Positions 38,601 to 63,423 of a stretch of DNA of 64,000 bases are shown piece by piece. Under the pieces are notes generated by a model. That model had not been told where the DNA came from. It did not search any database and saw nothing but the letters and a program-made list of their open reading frames with translations. The position numbers and the translations under genes were made by a program. Source of the DNA: Thermus sp. 2.9 (GTDB taxonomy: Bacteria; Deinococcota; Deinococci; Deinococcales; Thermaceae). Location of the stretch: the NCBI RefSeq assembly GCF_000794385.1, contig NZ_JTJB01000035.1, forward strand, positions 1 through 64,000. Reading direction: 5' to 3'. The stretch's first letter is position 1. The number at the start of each line of letters is the position of its first letter.

Positions 38601-39515
38601 CCTTCGTGTGCTACCTCATAGCTCCACCCCGGCCATCCTGAGAAGCACCCGGCTACGTATGAGGTTGTGAACAAGCAGGATGAGGTTCACCCGGGCCACC
38701 AGCCCCCAGTAGGACCGGGCCTCTATCCGATGAAGCCCCAAAGACCGCACCATCACGCTGAAGCGGGTCTCTATCCAGTTCCGTACCCTTCCCATCCACC
38801 CTCTCCACCCCGTCTCCACCACCCTTCCTCCCCTGACCCGATAGGGTGGTGTCTTGACTCCCTGGACCCAACGAAAGCCCCGGTCCCCGAGGACCGCGGG
38901 CAGACCGTCCAGCAGGTCCCTCCCCCAGGTCTCCCGGGCATTACCGGGGAGAATGGCCCAACGAAAGAAGAGACCCCGCTCGTTCATCACTGGCATGAGG
39001 ACGTAGCCCGCGAAAGCCCCCAGAGGTCCTACCCCCATCGCGGCCTCGGGAAGAGAGAGGCCGTGGATGCGGTGGCCGTGGGCCAGGGGGATAGGCTTGA
39101 GGTCCACCACCTGCAGGAGGCCTTGTCCCCCAGAGAGCCTCATGGCCAGGTGAGCCAACAACCCCTGGGCCTTCTGAAGGACCCGGTAGAAGCGGGAGAG
39201 GTGGGGGAGGGAGGGGAAGTAGGCCTTGAGGGTGGTCTTGGCGGCCAAGTAGCCTTTGGCGAGGTCTTGGCCTTGCAAAAGGAGAAAGATGGCGAGGGTT
39301 AGGAGCTCGGCCAGGGTAGCCTTCTGGTGCTTTTGCTTTGGGGGGAGCTTGAAGTCCTGAGCTTGCAAGGCCTTGAGTTCGTCATCCACCCAAATGTAGG
39401 TAGCCACCAGAAGGGTTTCCGCGTCAAGATAGTAAAGGGGGTGCTCACGATCTTGCTGCATAGCACCCCCTCTTTTTTCACATCCCGAGGGTCCAGATCA
39501 AGTAGCACACGAAGG
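38601..39515 (-). mobile_element. IS982-like insertion sequence, 915 bp
   Basis: Inverted ends CCTTCGTGTGCTAC at 38601-38614 and complement of 39502-39515. CATT flanks both sides (38597-38600 and 39516-39519), a probable 4-bp target duplication. One intact transposase gene is on the minus strand. It differs in sequence from the element at 2806-3732. Confidence 0.82.
38616..39461 (-). CDS. Transposase, IS982-like DDE type
   Basis: 281-aa transposase with an N-terminal helical region (ATYIWVDDELKALQ), first acidic block VVDLKPIPLAHGHRIHG, middle block AVLGDRGFRWVQGVKTP, and final RNWIETRFSVMVRSLGLHRIEA with the catalytic Glu, then VNLILLVHNLIRSR. The block order matches IS982 relatives, but similarity is weaker than for the other copy, so another IS4-superfamily assignment is possible. 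The frame is intact. Confidence 0.8.
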   Translation of the reverse strand: MQQDREHPLYYLDAETLLVATYIWVDDELKALQAQDFKLPPKQKHQKATLAELLTLAIFLLLQGQDLAKGYLAAKTTLKAYFPSLPHLSRFYRVLQKAQGLLAHLAMRLSGGQGLLQVVDLKPIPLAHGHRIHGLSLPEAAMGVGPLGAFAGYVLMPVMNERGLFFRWAILPGNARETWGRDLLDGLPAVLGDRGFRWVQGVKTPPYRVRGGRVVETGWRGWMGRVRNWIETRFSVMVRSLGLHRIEARSYWGLVARVNLILLVHNLIRSRVLLRMAGVEL

Positions 39516-41000: not shown

Positions 41001-41407
41001 GGTGGGTTGAGCTTGCAGGGGGGGTGGGGCTTGGGTTGGCCTTGGGGCTAGCGGCTACCGCTTTGGAGCGGGCTTTTCACCCCAATCCCGTACCCCTCGC
41101 CCCTTGCTGGCCGGCTCCCTTGCCCGAGCGGGCGGAGCTTTGGACCACGGGGGCGGTGGAGCTCTCCTTGTGCCGCCCCGCCACCTTGGTCTTGGACCTC
41201 GAGGGCACCCCCGCCCGGGGCAAGGGGCCTCATACCCTGGTGGTGGAGGGGGACCGGGTGCTTTGGGAGGGGGAGGTGCTGGGAAAAAAGACGCTTCGGG
41301 TGAAGATTTCGGGCCGCGGGGTGGTGGTACTGGCCTTTACCGACGACCTTTACCTACCTCCCCAGGACCGGAATCTCTTCCTGCGGGGGCTCAGGGTGGA
41401 GCCTTAG
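40997..41407 (+). CDS. Membrane-anchored beta-rich protein coupled to the O-antigen ligase-like gene
   Basis: 136 aa from GTG 40997, which overlaps the upstream stop as GTGA. One N-terminal membrane anchor (VELAGGVGLGLALGLAATAL) is followed by a soluble beta-rich part: ELSLCRPATLVLDLEGTPARGKG, HTLVVEGDRVLWEGEVLGKK, and VVVLAFTDDLYLPPQDRNL. The latter resembles carbohydrate-binding folds with a metal-linked DDxYxPPxDRNL end, like the tail of its neighbour. Function is unknown; a glycan-binding partner is the natural guess. Confidence 0.7.
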   Translation: MRWVELAGGVGLGLALGLAATALERAFHPNPVPLAPCWPAPLPERAELWTTGAVELSLCRPATLVLDLEGTPARGKGPHTLVVEGDRVLWEGEVLGKKTLRVKISGRGVVVLAFTDDLYLPPQDRNLFLRGLRVEP

Positions 41408-42111
41408 GCGGGGCGGTAAGCCTCCTCCCGCCGGTGCTTCAGGAGGGGGTAGCGGGCCCGGTAGGCCTCGAGGAAGCCCCAGTCCGGCTCGGCCAGGAGG
41501 AGGCCCTCCTCCTCCCTGCGGCCCAGGACCCGCCCGTCTGGGGCCACAAAGAGGCTTGGGGTTCCCGTGTCCGCCCGGCTCGCCAGGAGGAGGTAGGCTT
41601 GGTTTTCCGCCGCCCGGGCCCGGGCCAGGACCTCCATGAGCTCGGCGTAGGCCCCGGGCCAGGCGGCCCCCACCAAAAAGGCCTGGGCCCCCAGGAGGGC
41701 GTAGGTGCGGAAGAGCTCGGGGAAGTCCAGGTCGTAGCAGAGGGCGAGGCCCAAGGTCCGGCCCTCGTGGAGGAGGAGGACCGGGCCCGGCCCGGGGAGG
41801 AGCCCTTCGTCCCCTTCCTCTTCTGGCGTGAGGTAAAGGTGGACCTTGGCGTAGATGGGGCCTTGGGGGAAGACCTGGAGGCGGTTTTCCCTCGCGGCAA
41901 GAAGACCCGCCACCACCCTTAGGCCAAACTCCCCCGCCAGCGCCGCCAAGGCTTCGGGCAGGTCCGGGCTTTCCCGCCTGCCCAGGATGAGCTCGGGAAG
42001 GAGGAGAAGCCCCGCCCCTTCGGCCCGGGCTTCTTGGGCTAAGGGGCGGAGGGCTTGGAGGAGTTCTTTTGGGCTATCCCGCTTGGCGAGGTGGGCCAGG
42101 GCGAGGCGCAT
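41404..42111 (-). CDS. Carbon-nitrogen hydrolase (nitrilase superfamily)
   Basis: 235-aa amidase-like enzyme. The catalytic triad is visible: Glu in LLLLPELILG, Lys in IYAKVHLYLTPEE, and Cys in LALCYDLDFPELF. It is shorter than usual (about 260-290 aa), but all catalytic blocks are present. It starts at ATG 42111, directly after the bioY stop with no gap, so it is cotranscribed with the biotin transporter gene. The substrate is unknown; omega-amidase-like activity is plausible. Confidence 0.88.
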   Translation of the reverse strand: MRLALAHLAKRDSPKELLQALRPLAQEARAEGAGLLLLPELILGRRESPDLPEALAALAGEFGLRVVAGLLAARENRLQVFPQGPIYAKVHLYLTPEEEGDEGLLPGPGPVLLLHEGRTLGLALCYDLDFPELFRTYALLGAQAFLVGAAWPGAYAELMEVLARARAAENQAYLLLASRADTGTPSLFVAPDGRVLGRREEEGLLLAEPDWGFLEAYRARYPLLKHRREEAYRPA

Positions 42112-42717
42112 CTACTTACGGCCCAAACAGCGCCAGGCTGTGGGCAGGAGAAGGGCGGCGAGCACCGCCTTCACCAGGTCCCCAGGGAGGAAGGGGAAGA
42201 GCCCCATGGCCAAAAGCCCTCCCATCCCCGTGAACTTGCCCACCCCCACAAGCCAGGCCCCGAGCCAGGGAAGCCCCACCAGGTAGAGGAGGGCGTTCCC
42301 CAGGAGCATGGCCAAAAGGGTGCCGAAAAAGCTCCGGTCCAGGCCGAACCGCTCCACCAAAAGCCCCACCAGGCCCGCCGCCAAGGGGAAGGCCAGGAGG
42401 AAACCCCCCGTGGGGCCCAGGATCCTGGCCACGCCCCCCGTGCCCCCGGCGAAGACGGGAAGGCCCATGGCCCCTTCCAGGAGGTAGGCCAAAAGGGCCA
42501 GGAAGCCGAGCCGGCTCCCCAAGGCCGCCCCCACCAGGAGGATGCCCAAGGTTTGAAGGGTGAGGGGCACGGGGGTGAAGGGGAGGGGGATGGCCACCTG
42601 GGCGGTGAGGGCCACGAAGAGGCTTCCCGCCAGGATGAGGCTTAGGTCGCGGGCCAGGGTGCGCTTGGGCCAAAGGGTCTTGACCAAAGGAGTGTAGGCC
42701 AGGGCTTCGGTCTTCAT
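42112..42717 (-). CDS. bioY: Biotin transporter BioY
   Basis: 201-aa S-component of the ECF-type biotin transporter with about six spans. ATG 42717 is chosen because GAGGAGGT lies upstream; a longer in-frame start at 42738 overlaps that site. Family motifs are VAIPLPFTPVPLTLQTLGILLVGAALG, FAGGTGG, and GPTGGFLLAFPLAAGLVG. A BirA-like operator overlaps its promoter, fitting biotin repression. No ECF ATPase or T-component is nearby. Confidence 0.93.
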   Translation of the reverse strand: MKTEALAYTPLVKTLWPKRTLARDLSLILAGSLFVALTAQVAIPLPFTPVPLTLQTLGILLVGAALGSRLGFLALLAYLLEGAMGLPVFAGGTGGVARILGPTGGFLLAFPLAAGLVGLLVERFGLDRSFFGTLLAMLLGNALLYLVGLPWLGAWLVGVGKFTGMGGLLAMGLFPFLPGDLVKAVLAALLLPTAWRCLGRK

Positions 42718-42731
42718 AAGCACCTCCTCGT

Positions 42732-42764
42732 TCGTCAACCACGCTATAGCCCAAGGGTTTACAT
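42732..42764 (-). promoter_or_regulatory. BirA-like biotin operator upstream of bioY
   Basis: On the minus strand ATGTAAACC, 15 bp, GGTTGACGA. The known BirA consensus is TTGTAAACC, 14-16 bp, GGTTTACAA, so the half-sites match at 8/9 and 7/9. The site covers the spacer and -10 of the bioY promoter. Confidence 0.7.
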
Positions 42765-42769
42765 GTCAA
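42743..42769 (-). promoter_or_regulatory. Promoter of bioY
   Basis: Minus-strand TTGACA (complement of 42764-42769) and TATAGC (complement of 42743-42748), 15-bp spacer, 26 bp before the bioY start. It is embedded in the BirA-like operator. Confidence 0.6.
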
Positions 42770-42900
42770 GGGTCTTACCGGTGCGGGCCCAGGGCCTTAA
42801 GGATCTAGGGGTATACTGGAGCCGTGCCTTCTTTGCCTTGGCGTCCCAAGCCCTTTGCCTTGGGATGGCGAGGTTGGAAGGGCTTCCAAATAGGAGGTGA

Positions 42901-45874: not shown

Positions 45875-45878
<4 letters not shown>

Positions 45879-46270
45879 GGGAGTACCCGGATGGTGCCCT
45901 CCTCCGCCACCACGTGAAAGTGCCGGTCCAGGCTTAAAACCAGGCCCCCACTCCGCTCCGCCACGGCGACGACCGCGGCATCGGCCAAGCCTAAGGGCAG
46001 GTCCCGGTACCGGGTCACGAGTGCCCTGACCCGGGGCAGGTCCTTTTCCCCGCACTCCAGGGAGAAGGCCCCGGCCTCGAGGTCTTGGAGGAGGGCCTCG
46101 AGGGCCGCAAGGCCCAGGCGCCTTTCCACGAGGTAGGCGATCTCGGCGAGGATGCCCATAGGCACCAGGTAGGGACCAGGATCAAAAAGAAGGAGCGCCT
46201 TGACGCGGCCGTGGTCCGGGTCCTTCCGGTTCAGGAGGGCGAAGAGGGCGGAGGTGTCCAGGGTGATCAT
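45875..46270 (-). CDS. PIN-domain ribonuclease toxin (VapC-like)
   Basis: 131-aa PIN nuclease. The acidic metal-binding residues appear in [13 protein letters not shown], in the middle Glu of [15 protein letters not shown], in [14 protein letters not shown], and in the terminal LSLDRHF. Such toxins cleave tRNA or rRNA and are neutralised by a coupled antitoxin. ATG 46270 overlaps the antitoxin stop as ATGA. It is convergent with tpiA. Confidence 0.88.
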
Positions 46271-62485: not shown

Positions 62486-63423
62486 ACTACCGGGTTTGGG
62501 GGCTCGCGCCCCTCCAGGACGGCGAGCAGGTTTTCCACCGCCACCTCGGCCATGCGTTCCCGGGTGCGCCTGCCCGCCGAGCCGATGTGGGGGGTGATGA
62601 CGGCGTTGGGCAGGGCGTAGAGGGGGTGGCCCGGAGGCAGGGGCTCGGGGTCGGTGACGTCCAGGCCCGCCCCGAGGAGGTGGCCCTTTAGGGCCTCCAC
62701 CAGGGCCTCGGTGTCCACCAGGGCGCCCCGGGCGGTGTTGACGAGGATGGCCCCAGGCTTCATGGCGAAAAGCCTTTCCCGGTTCAGGAGGCGGTGGGTC
62801 TCCGGGGTGAGGGGGGCGTGGAGGGAGACGATGTCTGCGGTGGCGAGGAGGTCTTCAAGGGGAAGGAAGGGGTAGGGGAGGGGCTTGGGGGTACGGCTCG
62901 TGTAGACCACCCGCATCCCGAAGGCCAAGGCCCTCTTGGCCCACCGCCTGGGCGATGCGGGCCCATGCCCACGAGGCCCAGGGTGAGGCCCTGGAGGTCC
63001 GGGCCCAAGAGGAGCTCGGGGTGCCAGGCCCGCCAGTGCCCGCCTCGGGCGTGGGTCCACCCCCTCCACCACGCGCCGGGCCACGGCGAGGAGGAGGGCC
63101 AGGGTGAGGTCGGCGGTGGCCTCGGTGAGGACGTCGGGCGTGTGGGTGACGCGGATGCCCCTAAGCTGGGCCGCCTCCAGGTCCACGTGGTCCACCCCCA
63201 CGCTGTAGCAGGCGATCACCTTGAGGTTTTTCCCCGCCCGGTCCATGACCTCGGCGTCTATGCGGTCCTCCACGATGGGGATGAGGCCGTGGACGCCCTC
63301 CACCTTCCTCAAGAGCTCCTCCCGGGGGAGGAAAAGCCCCTCGTGGACCTCCACCTCCAGGCCCTTCGCCTTTAGGCGCTCCAGGGCCTGCCCCGGCAGG
63401 GTGCGGGTGACGTAGACCCTCAT
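62482..63423 (-). CDS. D-2-hydroxyacid dehydrogenase (glyoxylate/hydroxypyruvate reductase type) with a scrambled NAD-binding segment
   Basis: 313 aa from ATG 63423. The N-terminal substrate domain ([35 protein letters not shown]) and C-terminal catalytic parts ([45 protein letters not shown]) are normal. Between VVEGVD and KRALAFG about 45 residues are nonsense Arg/Pro/Gly. Three one-base excesses (G run 63053-63055, G run 62959-62961, C run 62940-62942) explain it: removing them restores [23 protein letters not shown] with the Rossmann GxGxxG. As written the enzyme could not bind NAD. Confidence 0.85.

Follow-up and report, generated by a model that had tools for sequence, protein, structure and literature searches.

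The window analysed here, a 64,000-nucleotide stretch of DNA from Thermus sp. 2.9, carries on its minus strand the gene bioY for the biotin transporter substrate-binding component (42112..42717), which starts with an ATG at 42717, stops with a TAG at 42114-42112 and is preceded by a ribosome-binding site reading GAGGAGGT (42722..42729, minus strand, direct reading). Its product is a member of the BioY family, since it matched PF02632 at 135.4 bits, above the curated cut-off of 25; the same Pfam family was matched in 49 of the 50 family genomes compared. The TAG of bioY touches, with a junction of 0 nt, the ATG of a nitrilase-superfamily CN_hydrolase gene on the same strand (41404..42111, 235 aa; PF00795, 70.2 bits, cut-off 23.2), and the divergent gene beside bioY is gap. 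Two further minus-strand open reading frames of the window were recognised by eye, one resembling an insertion-sequence transposase (38616-39461) and the other a PIN-domain (VapC-like) protein (45875-46270), the latter beside a tpi-like gene, also named by eye.

Direct reading of the minus strand from 42769 to 42715 gave TTGACATGTAAACCCTTGGGCTATAGCGTGGTTGACGAACGAGGAGGTGCTTATG, within which positions 42764-42732 read ATGTAAACC CTTGGGCTATAGCGT GGTTGACGA. The promoter-upstream half-site ATGTAAACC (42756..42764, minus strand) and the downstream half-site GGTTGACGA (42732..42740, minus strand) are inverted 9-mers with 15 bases between them, the arrangement of a BirA operator, in which two inverted GT(A/C)AACC-type half-sites stand about 15-16 bp apart. 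The E. coli BirA consensus is TTGTAAACC-N15/16-GGTTTACAA, and when TTGTAAACC-N15-GGTTTACAA was sought in the window at a tolerance of three mismatches, the bioY palindrome was the sole match, where 0.01 was expected by chance. Across the 2.40-Mb assembly, TGTAAACC-N14..16-GGTTNAC matched once and its control not at all, and GTMAACC-N15-GGTTKAC with up to one mismatch occurred at a single place, again the palindrome before bioY; the reversed-pattern control of this last search also yielded one place in the assembly at one mismatch, so that the loose search alone is no proof. All genome-wide pattern searches allowing mismatches were made with N15 spacing.

Thirty-eight sites at other loci served to build a weight matrix from which the window's own clade (L002-L006, the window plus four nearest relatives) was excluded. 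By this matrix the bioY palindrome took the first rank in the window with 28.9 bits, against 18.7 bits for the next different place and 15.7 for the best of 12 mononucleotide shuffles. The claim of an earlier, sequence-only reading that ATGTAAACC-N15-GGTTGACGA at bioY matches the BirA operator was thus borne out, the pattern being unique in the assembly by these searches and first in rank by the matrix. A site-like N16 sequence was also observed on the plus strand at 62711-62744 (18.7 bits), above the best of the 12 shuffles (15.7) and well below the bioY site.

The palindrome precedes a biotin uptake gene (bioY by Pfam) and overlaps conserved promoter-like columns, which we take as the predicted promoter. 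A -35 hexamer TTGACA (42764..42769, minus strand, direct reading) shares its last base with the first half-site. In 27 aligned promoter rows, comprising 26 Thermus and G049, TTGAC was found immediately before or overlapping that half-site in 24 and TTGA in 26; G042 has TTGCCT at this position. Among the 22 Thermus sites with N15 spacing, the spacer columns T10 (20/22), A11 (22/22) and T15 (22/22) were strongly kept and T14 more weakly (18/22), which defines the -10 element as TAnnnT, here TAGCGT (42741..42746, minus strand), at 17 bp from TTGACA. The TTGACA/TATAGC promoter that had been proposed from the sequence therefore stood in its -35 part, which does overlap the operator, and had to be corrected in its -10 part: TATAGC would need a spacing of 15 bp, whereas the conserved columns agree with TAGCGT and its 17-bp spacing. 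Transcription of bioY is predicted to start inside the second half-site, near 42734, and a BirA protein sitting on the operator would for that reason block the polymerase.

Downstream of the palindrome, 21 of the 26 Thermus bioY leaders read (L007-L026 and L028) showed in single-sequence folds a hairpin of 5-7 bp directly after the operator, with stems that vary among loci (GACCAC/GTGGTC, GAACCCC/GGGGTTC, GGCCAC/GTGGCC) and z values of -1.2 to -5.8 against mononucleotide shuffles, 14 of the 21 being at -2 or lower. An automatic consensus fold of the 21 leaders predicted no pairs, the aligner having probably shifted the stems. The clade of the window (L002-L006) is without the hairpin, and three of its members are almost leaderless. 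The hairpin may shield the mRNA at its 5' end.

The operator was found before bioY in all Thermus genomes (n = 27/27), with at most one mismatch over the two cores; 23 of these sites have N15 spacing with 0-1 mismatch and four have N16 (G037, G042, G044 and G046). Exact N15 matches were present in 16 of the 27, every one of them at bioY, and all 28 exact N15 matches of the 50 family genomes lay either before bioY (n = 16) or before birA (n = 12). In 16 genomes of the sister genus g4, putatively Meiothermus-like, including G008 and G014, the operator runs directly up to the GTG start of birA, so that all the HTH-bearing g4 birA genes (16/16) have it, and in G049 it ends at the birA start, ahead of a birA-bioY-nitrilase cluster. 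In total, 17 relatives have an operator ending at the birA start codon, 12 of them exact and five with one mismatch. Near the birA genes of Thermus itself (25 genomes) no site with two or fewer mismatches was found, hence no birA autoregulation is predicted in this genus.

Away from bioY, the N15 pattern at one mismatch occurred at 13 places in the 27 Thermus genomes, two of which were at bioB. The remaining 11 represent a mild excess over the five given by the reversed-pattern control in the same genomes (this control gave 25 places over the other 23 family genomes); they include three instances of one shared sequence (G023, G024 and G046) and a pair before ffh (G039 and G048; gene named by eye), and were taken as chance. 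A bioB gene scored above the cut-off in only two of the 50 family genomes, G048 and G039, and in both a pattern search that was blind to bioB had located a one-mismatch site, reading TTCGTAAACT-N15-GGTTTACGAACATG, 49 bp upstream of the region matched as bioB; taken with 9-base half-sites, this site ends two bases before the likely ATG, which was chosen by eye. Because both genomes share one site sequence, they were counted as one case. The relatives thus keep the operator at bioY orthologues as well as at birA and bioB. At these two loci (L095:6190-6235 and L097:5655-5700) bioB is divergent from a panD-like gene, by eye, and appears nearly leaderless, and the BirA-type site overlies its likely promoter.

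A BirA with an HTH, the regulator to be looked for according to the sequence-only reading, was detected in the assembly of the window: its only PF03099 match (E up to 0.001) is a 294-aa BirA that combines HTH_11 (30.0 bits, Pfam cut-off 25) with the BPL catalytic domain. HTH_11 was likewise present in all the readable Thermus BirA proteins (25/25), in all the BirA proteins of operator-bearing relatives (15/15) and in the N-terminal pieces from G008 and G014, and all the genomes with a readable HTH-bearing BirA (42/42) have a site at bioY, in Thermus, or at birA. Two genomes that have the bioY site, G039 (birA broken) and G043 (no birA found), stand outside this count. In G039 both bioY and birA read as broken (L109, L215-L217), the copies of its relative G048 being intact, and assembly errors are possible.

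Six genomes without a detectable BirA HTH (G001-G004, G006 and G012) had no operator at birA or bioY; genome-wide, they contained no exact match and seven one-mismatch places, none at either gene. The BirA proteins of G001, G002, G003, G004 and G012 gave no HTH match at E up to 1, and no place with up to three mismatches was found just before their birA genes, except in G012, where a single N16 place with three mismatches was regarded as background. The 3.7-kb birA loci of G001 and G002, where the birA start was extrapolated for this search, contained no site of up to one mismatch anywhere. In G003 and G004 the BirA protein keeps an N-terminal stretch of similar length, suggesting that the HTH domain is degenerate rather than deleted. 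In G006, which has no bioY, BirA is represented by a piece of 117 aa at the end of a contig that gave no Pfam match, and its birA locus showed no site of up to one mismatch, with a two-mismatch place about 1.2 kb off.

A 45-row tree built from the BirA catalytic domain, without the partial sequences of G006, G008 and G014 and the broken or missing ones of G039 and G043, needs two changes to account for this distribution and therefore two independent joint losses of the HTH and the operator. The branch of G012 is long, and with two pairs a sign test is unable to reach 0.05; the joint loss is suggestive and does not amount to a significant test.

The palindrome is, with high probability, the operator of a bifunctional ligase/repressor BirA, which would shut off the bioY-nitrilase transcript when biotin is high. 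The biotin repression of bioY anticipated by the sequence-only reading is strongly supported by the HTH-bearing BirA, the sites in every Thermus genome, the sites at birA and bioB and the joint absence of domain and site; promoter use, binding, ligand, repression and co-transcription at the bioY operon we infer. In known systems, BirA bound to biotinoyl-AMP dimerises and occupies its operator once the acceptor protein is saturated. In the proposed circuit, BirA that holds biotinoyl-5'-AMP and is free of acceptor protein would, with biotin plentiful, dimerise and bind both half-sites; as these extend from the last base of the -35 box as far as the predicted start of transcription, RNA polymerase would be excluded and the bioY-nitrilase transcript would stop. 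With biotin scarce, the operator would be free, the importer would be made and the amidase would be translated right behind it. Given that no bioB above the family cut-off was found in the assembly, the bioY-nitrilase operon is probably its whole BirA regulon, a scavenging circuit.

One could imagine that the palindrome is used by a different regulator or by the promoter of the divergent gap gene, the intergenic region being common to bioY and gap in the same arrangement in 24 of the 26 Thermus bioY loci read. This is highly improbable, as bioY or birA keeps the site even at loci where no neighbouring gap was found (L023, L026 and L027), showing that the operator goes with bioY and not with gap, and the site stands before birA in 16 g4 genomes and before bioB, and is missing at both birA and bioY where the BirA HTH is undetectable. 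The candidate -10 element of gap, a TATACT-like sequence recognised by eye at 42812-42817, also lies outside the palindrome, and a role as an element of the gap promoter was therefore rejected in favour of BirA control of bioY.

The nitrilase gene was intact (full-length, without a stop) in 19 of the 27 Thermus genomes and lay directly behind bioY in all 19. Among the other Thermus genomes, all of which keep bioY, it was absent in five (G025, G031, G035, G041 and G042, with just a weak partial match at another place in G031), and three had a broken copy (G036, G043 and G045), although the break in G043 may be an error of an assembly that is 65% complete. In G049 the gene follows bioY by about 80 bases in the birA-bioY-nitrilase cluster, whose surrounding genes differ. 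A nitrilase relative of 40-48% was found in 21 of the 22 genomes of the sister genera g2-g4, never in the vicinity of bioY on the contigs as assembled, a few of them short. In a genome scan that gave at least 69 nitrilase loci, a BioY profile built from this family only detected BioY in the flanks of the eight Thermus loci and in none of the flanks (4 kb or less, some cut by contig ends) of the 61 other relatives.

The encoded protein has a PF00795 CN_hydrolase domain with the catalytic Glu-Lys-Cys residues (E40, K89 and C125), invariant in all the aligned sequences (35/35), and its structure model (pLDDT 96.2) has the nitrilase fold. Its best structural match was mouse NIT2 (Z 31.9, 2.0 A over 234 residues), followed at Z of about 30 by XC1258, yeast Nit2, NitFhit and the Pyrococcus and Nesterenkonia amidases, with many nitrilase-superfamily enzymes at Z of about 28-30; its best PDB sequence match was a Nesterenkonia aliphatic amidase (E 1.3e-13). 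The best NCBIfam model, deaminated-glutathione amidase (NF033621), scored 69.1 bits, below its cut-off of 355, and the protein was not assigned to that family. The bioY-linked nitrilases, that of G049 included, are without a segment after the catalytic Glu which the unlinked relatives keep (e.g. SGYRYPDA); this could alter the pocket, which does not in itself point to biotin.

Co-repression of the nitrilase with bioY had also been predicted, and the gene anatomy supports co-transcription, to judge from the 0-nt junction, the position behind bioY of every intact Thermus copy and the G049 cluster; we infer co-transcription from this arrangement, and biotin-controlled expression of the nitrilase together with bioY appears likely. 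The further hint that the amidase may be linked to biotin or biotin-amide salvage kept its basis in the position behind bioY, a guilt-by-association lead, and was weakened by the loss or breakage of the gene in 8 of 27 genomes, by the unlinked relatives and by the amidase-type fold, so that a biotin-amide substrate is speculative.

We consider it somewhat probable that the nitrilase is a general enzyme of the NIT2/omega-amidase-like or aliphatic-amide kind that ended up behind bioY in the Thermus lineage, expressed with bioY and without a specific biotin role. This agrees with mouse NIT2 as the best structural match and other Nit/amidase matches at Z of about 30, with the aliphatic amidase as the best PDB sequence match, with a best NCBIfam score (69 bits) far below 355, with the location of the g2-g4 relatives elsewhere and with the repeated loss of the Thermus copies; on the other hand, that every one of the 19 intact copies in Thermus, and the copy of G049 as well, adjoins bioY suggests selection for co-expression. 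That adjacency is what favours a biotin-salvage unit, in which the nitrilase would free biotin from amides (biocytin, biotinyl-peptides, biotinamide) for the ligase: the gene occupies a BirA-controlled position, the G049 cluster persists despite rearrangement, and the linked copies retain the catalytic residues while missing the post-Glu segment. Such a unit is nevertheless unlikely in view of the eight Thermus genomes that keep bioY with the nitrilase absent or broken, the g2-g4 relatives away from bioY, the 61 other relatives whose flanks showed no BioY, nearest solved relatives of the aliphatic-amidase and NIT2 types, and a literature search in which nothing on point was found for a bacterial biotinidase-nitrilase. 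Less likely still is its most specific form, a biotin-amide hydrolase (biocytin/biotinyl-peptide amidase) recruited into the biotin regulon in the ancestor of Thermus and the genus g5, where loss of the segment would have opened the pocket for a larger substrate and let a biotin-auxotrophic thermophile use protein-bound biotin debris.

Clear comparative evidence extends BirA repression to the Thermus family, and the Thermaceae offer a natural experiment in which the repressor loses its DNA-binding domain and the operator goes missing with it. Should the amidase free biotin from amides, the locus would hold a bacterial biotinidase-type gene and a one-operon scavenging circuit, easily testable in Thermus; should it not do so, the genetics of thermophiles would still gain in the bioY promoter a candidate for regulation by biotin.

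BirA-operator control is a known kind of system. Biotin protein ligases of Group II have an HTH and those of Group I are without it; the BirA of the window's assembly, with HTH_11 and the BPL catalytic domain, resembles Group II, whereas the family as a whole contains both states, with G001-G004, G006 and G012 lacking a detectable HTH. The nitrilase shares the Glu-Lys-Cys residues and the fold of the NIT2/omega-amidase and aliphatic amidase enzymes, and differs from them in being short (235 aa), without the post-Glu segment and placed behind a BirA operator. Operator binding by B. subtilis BirA was measured and needs biotin and ATP, according to the excerpts of PMC4016012, in which its operators are said to differ from those of E. 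coli in sequence and spacing, whereas binding in Thermus is predicted here by comparison. In the literature searched, no BirA operator of Thermus or Meiothermus and no bioY-linked nitrilase was found, the excerpts of PMC3840689, PMC4016012 and PMC4861984 containing neither; an earlier prediction is possible in RegPrecise, a collection of BirA sites according to the excerpts of PMC4016012, or in the Rodionov 2002 biotin-regulon paper. The Thermaceae sites are like E. coli bioO and, as far as the excerpts of PMC4861984 describe it, Lactococcus lactis bioY1 in having inverted GT-AACC/GGTT-AC type half-sites, separated by about 15-16 bp, ahead of a gene for biotin synthesis or transport; the bioY1 site is reported there to extend over the region between -10 and -35. 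Unlike both, the Thermaceae half-sites favour GTCAACC/GGTTGAC, the predicted start of an mRNA with a short leader or none lies within the second half-site, and the regulon of the window's assembly appears to consist of a single operon with an amidase gene in it.
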